IMG/VR virus record: IMGVR_UViG_3300010885_032307
Coordinates: 1-29,920 of that record
Length of the DNA stretch: 29,920 nt
Direction: 5' to 3' (one strand)
From: a virus
The notes under the pieces were generated by a model that had not been told where the DNA came from, searched no databases, and saw only the letters and a list, made by a program, of their open reading frames with translations. Both the position numbers and the translations under genes were made by a program. Shown here one piece after another: positions 3,041-8,990 of the stretch (the stretch's first letter is position 1; every line of letters starts with the position of its first letter).

Positions 3041-3128
3041 GACTAAAGGAGTTCAGGCAAAGACTAAAACCTCTAAAATAAAGAGTAGTAAATTATATAA
3101 GAAATCTTATAAAGGACAAGGACGATAA
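2994..3128 (+). CDS. 44-residue Lys-rich protein ending KKSYKGQGR
   Basis: ATG at 2994 in AAAAATGG context; TAA at 3126-3128, overlapping the endolysin ATG in TAATG. The protein is extremely basic (IRKKSKTKGVQAKTKTSKIK) and ends SKLYKKSYKGQGR, a tail I recall from small proteins of Bacteroidota phages (KLYKKPYRGQG-like). It overlaps the end of the upstream membrane-protein gene by 47 bases in another frame. It probably binds nucleic acid or another acidic surface by charge alone, which is inference. The conserved tail and the coupled stop/start argue that it is real. Confidence 0.6.
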   Translation: MAKQTSVLPTIRKKSKTKGVQAKTKTSKIKSSKLYKKSYKGQGR

Positions 3129-3544
3129 TGGTAACATCAGCACAAGCATTAAAAAAATACGGAGATCCCACGCTAGAGCATAGTATGGTAGTATGGGATG
3201 TGCCTACTAATTTAGAAGTAGGCGTAATACCTAAGAAGCTTTATTGTAATAAGGATATGGTTGCTCCTTTATCTCAAGCATTTAAAAATCTTATAGACAC
3301 AGGAAAGATAGCTGAGCTTAAAACATTTGATGGCTGCTTTAACATTAGAAATAAAAGAGGACTTAGTTCAATGAGTTTACACTCTTGGGGAATTGCGATA
3401 GATGTTAATGCTGCTTGGAATCAGTTGAATATGACTCCGGCATTATCTGCGGAGTTTGTGAAATGTTTTATAGATGCAGGATTTGAGTGGGGTGGTACTT
3501 GGCAAAGAAAAGATGGGATGCATTTTCAGTTAAAATCTATATAA
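3128..3544 (+). CDS. Endolysin, M15-family metallopeptidase (D-Ala-D-Ala / L-Ala-D-Glu type)
   Basis: A 138-residue single-domain enzyme expected to cut peptidoglycan cross-link peptides at the end of infection. The M15 signature is clear: SLHSWGIAIDVN supplies zinc ligands H85 and D92, and KDGMHFQ supplies the likely catalytic D129 and the third zinc ligand H132. The FEWGGTW segment before it is typical of the phage M15C/M15_4 subfamily. There is no signal peptide, so access to the wall would depend on the holin gene that follows directly (3546). The ATG overlaps the upstream stop (TAATG). The length is normal for this compact phage type. Confidence 0.92.
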   Translation: MVTSAQALKKYGDPTLEHSMVVWDVPTNLEVGVIPKKLYCNKDMVAPLSQAFKNLIDTGKIAELKTFDGCFNIRNKRGLSSMSLHSWGIAIDVNAAWNQLNMTPALSAEFVKCFIDAGFEWGGTWQRKDGMHFQLKSI

Positions 3545-3545
3545 A

Positions 3546-4007
3546 ATGGATGACAAAAAGAAGTTTAAGGATACTAAAGTAGGTAAATTTCTAAACGAAA
3601 AAGCTCCAAAAATATTAGATACCATTGGTGATGTACTCCCTGAAAGGGGAGTTTTAGGTATAGTAAAGAACCTAATCAGTAAAGATGAGGAGATGACTCC
3701 TGAATCTAAGGCTGAAGCATTAATTTATTTAAAAGAAATATCTGATTTAGAAGTACAAGATAGGGATTCTGCAAGGAATAGGGAAATTGAAGTAGCAAAA
3801 GTACACAAGGTTGATTTTCTTTTTTATTTAACAGGGTTTATAGGATTAGGACTTTTTTGTTTTATCGTATATGCAATCGTATATTTACAAATACCTGCGG
3901 ATAATAAAGAGATTTGGATGCAGTTGATTGGATTAGTAGAGGGAGTTGTATTGTCAATCTTTGGATATTACTTTGGAAGTTCAATAAAGAGAAATGTACA
4001 TCCATAA
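3546..4007 (+). CDS. Holin-like inner-membrane protein
   Basis: A 153-residue protein with a soluble, charged N-terminal half (1-88) that includes the motif QDRDSARNRE (71-80), which I recall in holins of Bacteroidota phages. Two membrane segments follow, about 90-114 (FLFYLTGFIGLGLFCFIVYA) and 124-144 (LIGLVEGVVLSIFGYYFG), with a short KRNVHP tail. It starts one base after the endolysin stop, the usual holin/lysin arrangement. It would be expected to form inner-membrane lesions that release or activate the endolysin. Confidence is good for a membrane lysis protein and moderate for the exact holin class. Confidence 0.78.
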   Translation: MDDKKKFKDTKVGKFLNEKAPKILDTIGDVLPERGVLGIVKNLISKDEEMTPESKAEALIYLKEISDLEVQDRDSARNREIEVAKVHKVDFLFYLTGFIGLGLFCFIVYAIVYLQIPADNKEIWMQLIGLVEGVVLSIFGYYFGSSIKRNVHP

Positions 4008-4048: not shown

Positions 4049-4288
4049 ATGGACACAAAAAAACAATTGACAGAAGAAGAACTTAAGAAGATTCAAGAAA
4101 TGAGTGGAGAATTTAACAAGGCTAAGTTAGGTCTTGGAGATTTAGAATTGCAAAAGCAAGGATTGCTGAAGCACATAGAGTTGATTAGAGGAGATTTTTC
4201 TTCATACGAGATGATGTTGATAGAAAAATATGGTAAGGATTCAGTAATAAACATTCAAACAGGGGAAATAACAAATAAAATAGACTAA
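4049..4288 (+). CDS. Small coiled-coil phage protein
   Basis: A 79-residue protein, mostly helical: residues 6-45 (TEEELKKIQEMSGEFNKAK then LGDLELQKQGLLKHIELI) have continuous heptad-like hydrophobic spacing. The tail GKDSVINIQTGEITNKID includes VxINIxTGEIT, which I recall in a recurrent small coiled-coil protein of Bacteroidota phages. It is the first gene after the promoter at 4014 and lies one base ahead of the ferritin-like gene. It may act as an oligomeric adaptor; function unknown. Confidence 0.7.
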   Translation: MDTKKQLTEEELKKIQEMSGEFNKAKLGLGDLELQKQGLLKHIELIRGDFSSYEMMLIEKYGKDSVINIQTGEITNKID

Positions 4289-4289
4289 T

Positions 4290-4631
4290 ATGACACCGGG
4301 AAAATTCATTGGAACATTGTTCCATTCAAGAGACACAATGCACATTGCTCATCTTCAGACAACATCTTTTGCTGAGCATAAAGCTTTGAATGGATATTAT
4401 GATGGTATTCTTGATTTGACTGATACTTTTACTGAGGCTTACTTTGGTAGATTTAAAAGAGTTGAGATTATTATCCCTGAATCAAAAGTAATGGATGCAA
4501 CATCTCATTTAAAAGAGTTGCAATCAATTGTTGATACAGAAAGGATTAATTATCCATCTGAGATACAGAATATAATGGATGAGATTCTTGGATTGATAGA
4601 TAAGACCTTGTATCTTTTGACTTTAAACTAA
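4290..4631 (+). CDS. Dps/ferritin-like protein (DUF5856-type)
   Basis: A 113-residue helical protein that I associate with the phage family DUF5856 (from memory). H18, H30, D45 and E49 have the spacings 12, 15 and 4. These are exactly those of the E. coli Dps ferroxidase ligands H51, H63, D78 and E82. The stretch HKALNGYYDGILDLTDTFTE (30-49) also aligns well with Dps helix B, and IDKTLYLLTL at the C-terminus matches the end of Dps helix D. The Dps ligand D67 corresponds to N34. The protein lacks the Dps N-terminal tail and part of the middle. A four-helix ferritin-like fold is likely; iron oxidation or DNA protection is inference. Confidence 0.7.
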   Translation: MTPGKFIGTLFHSRDTMHIAHLQTTSFAEHKALNGYYDGILDLTDTFTEAYFGRFKRVEIIIPESKVMDATSHLKELQSIVDTERINYPSEIQNIMDEILGLIDKTLYLLTLN

Positions 4632-4638
4632 AAAATAA

Positions 4639-4902
4639 ATGGCTAAGATTAGCACATATACATATGCTGCTCCTCCTAATTTGGAGGACTATGTTATAGG
4701 AACGGACACAAGTGATTTTTTGGCTACAAAGAATTATATTATTTCAGATATTATAACTCTTGCTACAACAACAAATCAGTTTGTTACTCTTATTAATAAT
4801 GATCTTCCAACTTATGCAACCAATGCTGCTGCCATTTCAGGTGGACTTGCAGTTAACTCAATATACAAAACAGCAACAGGAGAAATCAGGATTGTTGTTT
4901 AA
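4639..4902 (+). CDS. Short fibre-anchor paralogue (87 residues)
   Basis: The N-terminus MAKISTYTYAAPPNLEDYVI through IGTDTSDFLATKNY matches the start of the 932-residue fibre that follows (MAKISTY..., LIGTEAV..., LATKNF). The C-terminus AISGGLAVNSIYKTATGEIR is a short ending seen in other phage fibre proteins, as I recall. The gene is therefore an anchor segment joined directly to a tip-like ending, with no shaft. It is intact, not a broken pseudogene. It may be a small tail appendage subunit or a competitor for the fibre attachment site. DNA identity to the long gene is low, so the duplication is old. Confidence 0.75.
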   Translation: MAKISTYTYAAPPNLEDYVIGTDTSDFLATKNYIISDIITLATTTNQFVTLINNDLPTYATNAAAISGGLAVNSIYKTATGEIRIVV

Positions 4903-4919
4903 TAATTAAAGATTATATA

Positions 4920-7718
4920 ATGGCAAAAATATCTACGTACGCTTTAGCAAATACTCCTTTATCATTAAGCGATAGGCTAATAGGTACGGAGGCCGTTAGA
5001 GTTCCTGCATCTAAGACACCTCTTGCTACGAAGAACTTTTCATTAGGAGAGCTTTTAACTTTGTTTTCTTCAGAATGGACAGGTAATAATCTTCAAGAAG
5101 TTCTTGATCAGGGTAATTCTGCTACGCAGAGTATGTATCTTACAGGTCAAATAACAACAACCTCAATTAAGGCTACCAATATTATTGATACTGTAAATAA
5201 TTTTGGCAATACAGGTCAAGTATTATCAAATTCAGGAGCAGGGATTAGTTGGGTATATTTACAATATACATTACAAGATATATTAGATCAAGGTAATACT
5301 GCTACGCAGAATATAAATCTTACGGGAACTATAACTGCAAGTACAATTAAACCTGTAAACATTACTGATACATTATCTTCTAATGGAAGTGTAGGTCAGG
5401 TATTAACTAAGGTGATAGGTGGAATACAATGGGCTGCTACTCCTGCAAGTACATTACAAGCTGTATTAACTGCAGGTAATTCTGCTACTAATAATATAAA
5501 TCTTACAGGCACTATAACTGCTGACAATATTCATTTAGGTAAAATAAGGGATTCTGCAAGTAGTTATGGTACGAGTGGTCAGATACTTAAGAGTCAAGGC
5601 TCAGCAAGTGGGATACTTTGGTTCACACCGGCTGCTGCTACATTACAAAGTGTTCTTGATGCAAATAATGCTGCTGTACAAGATATAACTCTTCAAGGAC
5701 TTATAACTACTACATTAATTAAACCTGCAAATATTCAGGATTTTGCTTCAAGCATAGGTTCTGTAGGACAGGTATTAACTCGTAATCCGGCAGGTATAGT
5801 ATGGGCTACTCCTACAGGTGGTGGTGGAAGTCAAACTTTAGACCAAGTATTAAATGTAGGAAGCGATACTAATCATGATGCTACTTTTAATAGTCTTGTA
5901 AATATAGATGAACTTAAAGCTTTGACTATTAGGGATTATTATAATAGCGCAGGAACTGCAGGCCAAGTATTAAGTAAGGAAGTTGGAGGATTTATAAAAT
6001 GGGCTACTCCTACTCCGGGAGGGGTTACTAAGATTACTGCAGGGACAAATGTGACAATATCTCCAATTGGAGGTACAGGTGACGTAACTATAAATGCTAC
6101 AGGTGGAGTTCAGAATTTACAAGAAGTAACTGATGAAGGTAGTATTACTACCAATGATATAAGTATTAATAGTTTAAATTTATATGATGGGGCTTATGGG
6201 GGATATCAAAATATATCTATTGGAGACCATAGCATTGGGTTCATTCCTTCTGTAGCAGCTTCTTCTTATCCTTTTACTATAAGTTGGGATTCTATAAATG
6301 CAAGTCGTCAATATGATTTGCCTAATGCGTCAGGATTTTTTGCATTATCAGTTAATGGAGCAACTGCAGATAATACCGGGAATATAGTAATATCAACAAG
6401 TGGGAATCTTCAGCAAGTAACTGATGCAGGAAGTGTAACGACTAATGATATAAGTGTAAATAGTGTTTATTTTTATGATGATGCTGCAGGTGAATATGGA
6501 AGAATAACTCTTTCTGATAGGCAATGGCTATTTCATGATGCAGATGATATTGTAAGATGTTCTTTTCAAGAAGGATCGTTAAGTTTATTTAATGGAACAG
6601 CAACATATACTTTTGTTGGAAATAATTTAACTGCAAGTAAGTTTCTTGAAGCTCCTAATTACTCAGGAACAGGAGCACGGACTTTGGCTATCTCTGTTAA
6701 TGGTGTAACGGCAGATACTGCAGGTGATATAACAATAGCAAGTGGAGCTTTGCCTTCATTTGAAGTTGATTTAGATGGGGTTACTCAATATGATATTACA
6801 GCATCAGGTATATATACATTTATAAATTCTTATGAGCCATATAATGTAATTGCACTTCCTAATCCAACTTTACATACAGGAGAAAGGATAATTATTAGAA
6901 ATCCAAATCCAATTAATTTATCTGTTGCTGCTACATATGAATTTATATATTCTGAAAGTGGAGGTTTAGTAGTAGATTTTATTCCTCAAAATAGTACTCT
7001 TGAGGTTATATCTACAGGAATTATTTGGACTACAATTTGTAGAACAGCAACAACTAGAAAAAATATAGATTTAACAAGTTCAGATTATACAATCAATGAT
7101 AAAGGAACATATGTTATTGATGTAGCCGGTACAGGTACTTTATTACTTCCTGCAGGCACTTCTTTTGTTGGAGAAAAAATAACAATAATAAATAAGGATA
7201 CTGTTAACCCTGCTATTCTTAATATTTTAACAACTGCATTTATTGGAGGCTCAAGCACTTATATTAAAAATATACCTCCAATGCAAACATTAGAAGTTCT
7301 TTCTGATGGTAATTGGAGAACGATTTCTGATTTAAGACCTTATAGAGTATATACAGCTCAATTAAGTCAAGAGGATGTGAATGATCCTATTGCTATTGTA
7401 CTTGAAAATACATTAGGATATGATTTAACTTGGGATTGTGGGGGAAATGATTGTGTTGAAGGGGATTTTAGATTTTATAATAGTACATATTTCCCTGATG
7501 AAAATTGGGATAAGTTCTATGTGTCTATAAGTATTGGAGGTTCTGCATCTGATCCTACACATTTTTATTACAATGCTCATGCTTGGTTTGATAAAACAAA
7601 TAAAATAGCAGGAGTTTTTGCAGCTATTTTTGATGGAACAACAGCAGGTTCAGGGCAAGCATTATCAGGAGATAATCCTTATACTCCTGCTTCTTTTGAA
7701 TTTAGAATATATAATTAA
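4920..7718 (+). CDS. Long repeat-containing tail fibre / appendage protein
   Basis: A 932-residue Thr/Ser/Asn/Gly-rich, beta-prone protein. Residues 1-50 are the MAKISTY anchor shared with the gene before it. Residues 58-363 hold five repeats of about 60 residues, each starting LQ.VLD.GN and ending GQVL....GI.W. Two related units begin near 399 and 503 (LQEVTDEGSITTNDIS, LQQVTDAGSVTTNDIS). The C-terminal domain from about 805 (VYTAQLSQEDVNDPIAIVLE through SFEFRIYN) is of a type I recall at the tips of Bacteroidota phage fibres and probably contacts the host surface. No endosialidase or chaperone autoprocessing motif is evident. Confidence 0.85.
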   Translation: MAKISTYALANTPLSLSDRLIGTEAVRVPASKTPLATKNFSLGELLTLFSSEWTGNNLQEVLDQGNSATQSMYLTGQITTTSIKATNIIDTVNNFGNTGQVLSNSGAGISWVYLQYTLQDILDQGNTATQNINLTGTITASTIKPVNITDTLSSNGSVGQVLTKVIGGIQWAATPASTLQAVLTAGNSATNNINLTGTITADNIHLGKIRDSASSYGTSGQILKSQGSASGILWFTPAAATLQSVLDANNAAVQDITLQGLITTTLIKPANIQDFASSIGSVGQVLTRNPAGIVWATPTGGGGSQTLDQVLNVGSDTNHDATFNSLVNIDELKALTIRDYYNSAGTAGQVLSKEVGGFIKWATPTPGGVTKITAGTNVTISPIGGTGDVTINATGGVQNLQEVTDEGSITTNDISINSLNLYDGAYGGYQNISIGDHSIGFIPSVAASSYPFTISWDSINASRQYDLPNASGFFALSVNGATADNTGNIVISTSGNLQQVTDAGSVTTNDISVNSVYFYDDAAGEYGRITLSDRQWLFHDADDIVRCSFQEGSLSLFNGTATYTFVGNNLTASKFLEAPNYSGTGARTLAISVNGVTADTAGDITIASGALPSFEVDLDGVTQYDITASGIYTFINSYEPYNVIALPNPTLHTGERIIIRNPNPINLSVAATYEFIYSESGGLVVDFIPQNSTLEVISTGIIWTTICRTATTRKNIDLTSSDYTINDKGTYVIDVAGTGTLLLPAGTSFVGEKITIINKDTVNPAILNILTTAFIGGSSTYIKNIPPMQTLEVLSDGNWRTISDLRPYRVYTAQLSQEDVNDPIAIVLENTLGYDLTWDCGGNDCVEGDFRFYNSTYFPDENWDKFYVSISIGGSASDPTHFYYNAHAWFDKTNKIAGVFAAIFDGTTAGSGQALSGDNPYTPASFEFRIYN
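5091..6008 (+). repeat. Five approx. 60-residue protein repeats in the fibre shaft
   Basis: The repeats start at about residues 58, 118, 179, 242 and 307 of the fibre. Each has an LQ.VL..GN head, an NI.LTG.IT middle with I.D, and a GQVL.....GI.W end. At the DNA level they have diverged (for example caggtattaac versus caagtattatc), so they are an old shaft repeat and not a recent tandem array. Confidence 0.8.
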
Positions 7719-7723
7719 ATAAA

Positions 7724-7951
7724 ATGGATATTAGAAAAATTTCTGTGGGACCTGACTATAAGAATGGTGCTATGCACTATATAGTTGGACAAAAAATATT
7801 TGGGGATACTAATGAAATACATCTAATAAAGTATAATCCCGACAATCAATCAATACTTGTTTATATAATAAATAAAAAGGAAGAGATAGTTCTTTGGAAA
7901 GAATTTACCTCAACGATTCCAATTTCAATTGAATTTAATATAGATTATTAA
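7724..7951 (+). CDS. Small conserved phage protein (MDIRKISVGPDYKNGAMHY type)
   Basis: A 75-residue protein opening with MDIRKISVGPDYKNGAMHYI. It then has strand-like segments (EIHLIKYN, SILVYIIN, EIVLWKEF) and ends with PISIEFNIDY. From memory this conserved small protein recurs in crAss-like and related Bacteroidota phages, usually near fibre or terminase genes; its function is unknown. It is probably a single small beta domain. Its TAA overlaps the ATG of the next gene (TAATG, 7949-7953), indicating coupled translation. Confidence 0.75.
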   Translation: MDIRKISVGPDYKNGAMHYIVGQKIFGDTNEIHLIKYNPDNQSILVYIINKKEEIVLWKEFTSTIPISIEFNIDY

Positions 7952-8514
7952 TGAAGTCACCATTCTATTTTATAGCTAAGCCTATAAATGGAAGAAGATA
8001 TGACAATACAAAAGACATAGAGGGTACTGAAGTTATAGTAAGTACTTCTGAAGAGGACCACAAGTTCTCAAACAGATATGCTGAGGTTGTCGAGCTTCCA
8101 TTAGGTTACAAAGGCCCAATTACTCCGGGCGATATACTACTTGTTCATCACAATGTTTTTAAGTATTATAATGATATGAAAGGCAAGCAGAAGAGCGGTA
8201 AGAGTTTTTTTAGAGATGACATATTCTTTATTGAGCCTGATCAGTTTTTTATGTATAAGAAAGGTTCCACGTGGAATGCATACGATAGGTATTGTTTCAT
8301 AAAACCTATATTGGCAACAGAGTCTTATATTAAAAAGCCATTCTCAGAAGAACCATTGATGGGTGTAATGAAATACTCAAATGAATATCTAATTAGTCAA
8401 GGCGTTAATGCAGGTGATATGGTTTGTTTCTCTCCTGATAACGAATATGAATTTACTGTTGATGGAGAAAAACTATATAGGATGTTTGACCATCAAATAA
8501 CAATTAAATTATGA
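7951..8514 (+). CDS. Putative GroES-like-fold protein
   Basis: A 187-residue protein with a pattern like the co-chaperonin barrel: EGTEVIVS (24-31), then AEVVELPLGYKGPITPGDIL (44-63) and LLVHHN, as in GroES, where a value strand and a K.GD.V.F turn occur. A second half, LMGVMKYSNEYLISQGVNAGD (136-156) then MVCFSPDNEYEF, looks like a repeat of the same layout. Phage T4 gp31 shows that phages can carry GroES substitutes for capsid folding, and this gene lies close upstream of head genes. The assignment is pattern-based; an unrelated beta-barrel virion protein is the main alternative. Confidence 0.5.
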   Translation: MKSPFYFIAKPINGRRYDNTKDIEGTEVIVSTSEEDHKFSNRYAEVVELPLGYKGPITPGDILLVHHNVFKYYNDMKGKQKSGKSFFRDDIFFIEPDQFFMYKKGSTWNAYDRYCFIKPILATESYIKKPFSEEPLMGVMKYSNEYLISQGVNAGDMVCFSPDNEYEFTVDGEKLYRMFDHQITIKL

Positions 8515-8990
8515 ATATAACTTCATTTGATAACGTATTATCAAGTCCTGAATTGTACGTACAAGATATCTATGAGAATGGATTTCAAGATGTATTTGAT
8601 GGAGAAAAAACATTTAAAAATATACAACCTCGTGAGAATGATGATGAGTTTGCTAAGTATGTATTATCTAAGTTTGATGGTTATAAAGTAAATTATAATT
8701 TTATAAGAAAGTCTCCACTTAATCAAGAAGAACCTAACTTTATACATAAGGATGATATGATGGGGGATATTACCTGTATATTATATCTTAATGAGAATAA
8801 ACCTGTTAGTGATGGTACTACTATTTACGATGAAAATAATAATCCAAAATGTGTATTATATTCTAAGTTCAATAGGATGATTTCATTTAATGCAACATTG
8901 TTGCATTCTCGGAATATATATGAGAACTTTGGAGAAGGAGAATACTCAAGATTAATTCAAGTAATATTTTTAGGAAAAAATGACAACTAA
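8511..8990 (+). CDS. 2OG-Fe(II) oxygenase-like protein
   Basis: A 159-residue protein with the core facial-triad pattern of the 2-oxoglutarate/Fe(II) dioxygenase superfamily. H79-K80-D81 (FIHKDDMMGDITCILYLNEN) gives the HxD pair on the expected strand, followed by the usual C-I-L-Y-L-N strand. H132 (NATLLHSRN) is the distal ligand, and R147 (YSRLIQVIFL) could bind the 2-oxoglutarate carboxylate. It resembles DUF6445-type members as I recall them. The substrate is unknown; protein or nucleotide hydroxylation are both possible. Its ATG overlaps the previous stop (ATGA), and its end overlaps the next gene by 11 bases. Confidence 0.75.
   Translation: MNITSFDNVLSSPELYVQDIYENGFQDVFDGEKTFKNIQPRENDDEFAKYVLSKFDGYKVNYNFIRKSPLNQEEPNFIHKDDMMGDITCILYLNENKPVSDGTTIYDENNNPKCVLYSKFNRMISFNATLLHSRNIYENFGEGEYSRLIQVIFLGKNDN

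Follow-up and report, generated by a model that had tools for sequence, protein, structure and literature searches.

The gene at positions 4290–4631 of the window, by which we mean the whole 29,920-nucleotide stretch of viral DNA analysed, belongs to the phage family DUF5856, and its 113-residue product is probably best explained as a minimal Dps-type ferritin-like protein with a predicted intersubunit Fe(II)-oxidising site. An earlier note, made by reading the DNA, had proposed a shortened Dps here, and the coordinates, strand and length that it gave for the ORF were exact. The family and its Dps/ferritin label are known already, and the window gene joins this known phage family rather than forming a new system; what is new here is the corrected site, the invariance of that site and the link to RI.-1 of phage T4. 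The gene and the three that precede it are as follows.

Positions 3128–3544, plus strand: M15 peptidase, probable endolysin (Pfam Peptidase_M15_4, 1.7e-15; PHROG endolysins).
Positions 3546–4007, plus strand: membrane protein, possibly a holin (weak PHROG 199 holin match, 0.0025; hydrophobic stretch near the C-terminus).
Positions 4049–4288, plus strand: hypothetical coiled-coil-like gene of 79 residues, directly upstream of the DUF5856 gene and likely co-transcribed with it (at −1 in 76 related loci).
Positions 4290–4631, plus strand: DUF5856 gene, 113-residue Dps-related ferritin-like protein (Pfam PF19174, PHROG 858, AlphaFold, hhalign to Dps).

The window protein scored 78.6 bits against Pfam DUF5856 (PF19174; cut-off 34.6), covering positions 1–94 of the 94 in the profile, and matched PHROG 858 at 3e-25, the text of which, ‘starvation-inducible transcriptional regulator’, is a Dps-style name. 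NCBIfam gave no match for the protein, nor did the Pfam ferritin family (PF00210) at E-values up to 10, and PF00210 was also missing from the 25 families that 80 relatives matched most often at E-values up to 1. By tblastn, the DUF5856 family was found in 1,396 of 50,697 phage records, mostly T4-like phages and Ackermannviridae, and 225 IMG/VR loci were close to the window protein. The T4 gene rI.-1 is a homologue (DUF5856/PHROG 858) in which all four of the predicted ligands described below are present, and the members of DUF5856/PHROG 858, RI.-1 included, share sequence, length and all invariant residues with the window protein. The T4-like members differ in having a short extra N-terminus and in lying beside rI, whereas the window gene lies beside the M15 endolysin and the membrane protein. 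The name DUF5856 was not found in any paper of the literature searched. In the records OM386655 and MW233709, DUF5856 genes are annotated ‘tail fibers protein’ and ‘endoribonuclease’, apparently in error, and a match in phage Dru_SM5 (28%, E = 0.6) was rejected as a segment of an unrelated 444-residue protein.

The AlphaFold model of the protein (pLDDT 96.2, pTM 0.88) has helices at residues 3–23, 27–54, 70–85 and 90–111, and structure prediction, set against ferritin and Dps structures, gave the four-helix bundle with Dps topology that the earlier note had anticipated; the model of a second homologue (L218) was likewise a bundle of this kind. VIA-align superimposed all 113 residues on MsDps2 (Z = 14.3, 2.0 Å) and 113 residues on E. 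coli Dps (Z = 13.3, 2.2 Å), a Z near 13 being indecisive on its own where bundles are helical, and nearly all of the top 50 VIA rows were ferritin-like proteins. A single-sequence search of the PDB with the protein gave nothing usable. When a profile of 16 diverse members was compared with PDB sequences, H. pylori NAP, which is a Dps, was the best match (1.6e-4); it again came first with an 80-member profile (5.5e-5), and when the 80-member alignment was compared with nine Dps sequences by hhalign, the E-value was 6.2e-7 and the probability 92 over residues 4–111. The same comparison pairs LIDKTLYLLT with DLDKFLWFIE of E. coli Dps, and the C-terminal match to Dps claimed earlier is thus real. 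Because the Foldseek E-values are weak by themselves (best 0.15), the case for homology to Dps is built on the combination of profile, ligands and structure, which does support it; AlphaFold, VIA-align and hhalign agree on a Dps-related four-helix bundle shorter than Dps itself. We do not claim strict membership of Dps, because the short BC helix (residues 55–69 of the model are given no helix by DSSP), the residue at D67 and recognition by PF00210 are all absent. The model also matches, in BFVD, a Pithovirus LCPAC404 protein of 115 residues (E = 3.6e-4) and a Fadolivirus protein of 129 residues (E = 3.7e-3), and, given these two predicted proteins, giant viruses may also carry this fold.

The earlier note had assigned H18, H30, D45 and E49 to H51, H63, D78 and E82 of E. 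coli Dps from their spacing of 12, 15 and 4. The spacing is as it stated, and a conserved Dps-type ligand set does exist, but its first member is H21. The codons concerned are listed below, with conservation counted over 298 relatives, of which 297 cover H21 and H30 and many are only 30–40% identical.

Positions 4341–4343, plus strand: codon of H18, an additional and highly conserved His that lies one helical turn ahead of H21 (His in 288, Lys in 8 and a gap in 2 of 298).
Positions 4350–4352, plus strand: codon of H21, equivalent of E. coli Dps H51, predicted iron ligand (invariant, 297/297; hhalign).
Positions 4377–4379, plus strand: codon of H30, equivalent of Dps H63 (invariant, 297/297; hhalign).
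Positions 4422–4424, plus strand: codon of D45, equivalent of Dps D78 (invariant, 298/298; hhalign).
Positions 4434–4436, plus strand: codon of E49, equivalent of Dps E82 (invariant, 298/298; hhalign).

In the hhalign alignment, given here with E. coli Dps numbering, a gap of three residues in the A–B loop brings H21 opposite H51; the further pairs are H30 with H63, N34 with D67, D45 with D78, E49 with E82 and Y108 with W160. In the structural register, residues 1–113 of the model pair with 31–166 of E. coli Dps and, provided that helix A contains no gap, H21 lies on H51. The RB49-type homologues have three extra loop residues (GPG), and in these H31-x11-H43-x14-D58-x3-E62 reproduces the exact Dps spacing of 12, 15 and 4; the model of one of them, L218 (pLDDT 90.8), aligned at zero offset with L. 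innocua Dps 2bjy, an H31G-H43G mutant entry, such that H31 and H43 of L218 fall on the mutated pair. The match of the 80-member profile to HP-NAP was aligned without a loop gap, which favours the H18 register, but we consider this single match to be outweighed by the other evidence. H18 was accordingly rejected as a ligand in favour of H21, to which profile alignment, structural register and invariance all point. The alignment of homologues bears out the earlier expectation that the four residues are not freely substituted, but the strictly invariant first His is H21, not H18. The note was also correct in placing an Asn, N34, at the position of D67. Most members have Gly or Asn there, and D67 is replaced in two of the nine Dps sequences aligned, so that it is not a strict Dps criterion; the equivalent of Dps W52 is Leu in the window protein.

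The pattern H-x11-H-x14-D-x3-E appeared in 0.069% of composition-preserving shuffles of the protein and in one of 2,297 neighbouring phage ORFs from related loci, and shuffling yields the corrected pattern, H21-x8-H30-x14-D45-x3-E49, just as seldom (0.071%). It seems very improbable that the helical-bundle fold alone has been retained, with the resemblance to Dps coincidental or vestigial. Such a reading draws on the shortness of the sequence, on the commonness of four-helix bundles and on the lack of conservation at D67 and W52, but it does not sit easily with four ligands that are invariant in 297 of 297 relatives, though many of these share just 30–40% identity, or with an hhalign comparison (E = 6e-7) that puts the ligands in register.

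The likeness to the Dps proteins of E. coli and L. innocua and to H. pylori NAP therefore comprises the four-helix bundle, the H-H/D-E ligand set, identical H63–D78 and D78–E82 spacings and a conserved C-terminal helix in which Y108 takes the place of W160. In contrast, the window protein has 113 residues, compared with about 145–167 for Dps, and an A–B loop shorter by three residues; it has no N-terminal basic tail and, in the model, no helix in the B–C loop, D67 and W52 have no conserved equivalents, and there is no Pfam ferritin match.

An intra-subunit diiron site of the ferritin type was rejected, H30 and D45 being separated by about 22 Å along a single unbroken helix of the model. Because these two residues are 15 positions apart on the same helix, the four ligands can come together in one site only if two subunits contribute. 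In the mechanism we propose, two antiparallel subunits would be arranged head to tail, as they are in Dps, with H21 and H30 of one subunit facing D45 and E49 of the partner, and the site between them would bind Fe(II) and oxidise it with peroxide or oxygen, an activity that would reduce the amounts of free Fe(II) and peroxide in the course of infection. In the window phage, the protein probably acts late in infection. The Gly or Asn that most members have at the D67 position may weaken the second iron site.

A basic tail is a feature of E. coli-type Dps and is missing in several Dps proteins. In the model of the window protein, only two residues precede the first helix (from residue 3) and two follow the last (to residue 111), so that a basic DNA-binding tail is absent, and the pI is 5.2, with a range of 4.5–6.9 in the sampled family and no member above 6.9. 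Dps-like wrapping of DNA is unlikely because the protein is acidic and has no terminal tail; the DUF5856 protein probably does not coat DNA, and the same observations speak against protection by wrapping as a form of the DNA protection suggested in the earlier note.

A different reading is that DUF5856 proteins are accessories in lysis timing which modulate holin/antiholin-dependent lysis and in which the metal site is structural or redox-sensing. We regard this as unlikely. The T4 homologue RI.-1 has all four ligands, rI.-1 directly follows the antiholin gene rI in T4-like phages and, in the part of PMC6832632 that describes Golec et al. (2010), over-expression of rI.-1 from a plasmid slightly prolonged lysis inhibition. 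Lysis genes adjoin DUF5856 both in the window lineage and in the lineage of L234, L246, L248 and L282, and a recognised lysis gene lies within three genes at 103 of the 211 sampled loci, a figure based on an automatic label that undercounts, having missed rI in RB49-type loci as well as lysozyme-type endolysins. On the tree, however, the lysis label changes only twice and is thus concentrated in few clades, and in several lineages the genes beside it are portal, HNH or primase instead. Moreover, RaK2 carries a homologue without T, RI, RI.1 or RIII (PMC3622015), and the effects of rI.-1 over-expression are slight. A general link to lysis cassettes was rejected, as it holds in some lineages and not in others. 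A variant that joins the two roles seems to us quite unlikely: the DUF5856 family, T4 RI.-1 included, would consist of mini-Dps proteins that oxidise iron, and their iron or redox state would feed into lysis timing. If true, the decision to lyse would have a chemical input, both in T4 and in phages unrelated to it.

A second freshwater lineage has spanins and endolysins of the M15 or lysozyme type next to the gene, and at L248, L282, L074 and L001 unrelated endolysin types (M15 peptidase, lysozyme-like) swap beside DUF5856. The 79-residue gene directly upstream in the window gave no significant family in Pfam or PHROG, and a search for Bacteroidetes-type promoters returned two matches, equal to the chance expectation.

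The earlier note had also allowed that the protein might be a virion part. The relevant homologue is gp217 of Sajous1, a Kuttervirus of the Ackermannviridae, which has all four ligands, is 36% identical to the window protein over 102 residues and is encoded beside DNA primase and virion-detected proteins. It was called ferritin by Phyre2 and was represented by 10 spectra in CsCl-purified virions, although the authors caution that low-count virion proteins may be debris (PMC10892097); tonB and feoB (iron-uptake) mutants were infected normally. Several kuttervirus records label the DUF5856 homologue structural, and portal adjoins the DUF5856 gene in some IMG/VR lineages, but the T4 gene sits among small accessory genes by rI, and we found no virion role of RI.-1. 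The suggestion thus gains some support from the Sajous1 virions, qualified by the caution over debris, and a role in the particle, such as in its tail, as a component bearing iron or a ferritin-like fold appears improbable.

Other phage-encoded Dps-like proteins are those of Lactobacillus and Streptomyces phages, of which the Streptomyces proteins are short too (132–133 residues); unlike the window protein, they are directly recognisable by sequence, with an HW motif and AER, and they do not belong to DUF5856. In Stanwilliamsviridae Streptomyces phages (L309:118-516 and L310:106-507), these Dps-like proteins of 132–133 residues keep HW, H, D and ER, are without tails and are mostly annotated hypothetical.

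Elsewhere in the window, positions 4639–7718 hold two consecutive ORFs with a near-identical N-terminus (MAKISTYTYA and MAKISTYALA), and the 932-residue ORF of this region has repeated TLQxVLDxGN-type modules, which suggests a tail-fibre-like protein with a duplicated head. The region 7951–8990 contains a GroES-like co-chaperonin match (PHROG 13932, 1.5e-20), and after it, at 8511–8990, comes a 2OG-Fe(II) oxygenase-like protein, a short distance ahead of the terminase gene; annotated groEL and groES are also present in the relative MW202828.

Some 1,400 phage records, T4 included, carry a family named just DUF5856 or, misleadingly, ‘starvation-inducible transcriptional regulator’, and the invariant four-residue site makes T4 rI.-1 directly testable. 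Should the window protein, with its 113 residues, prove to be a ferroxidase, it would be unusually small for a protein of the Dps type and would help in asking how little an intersubunit iron site needs.
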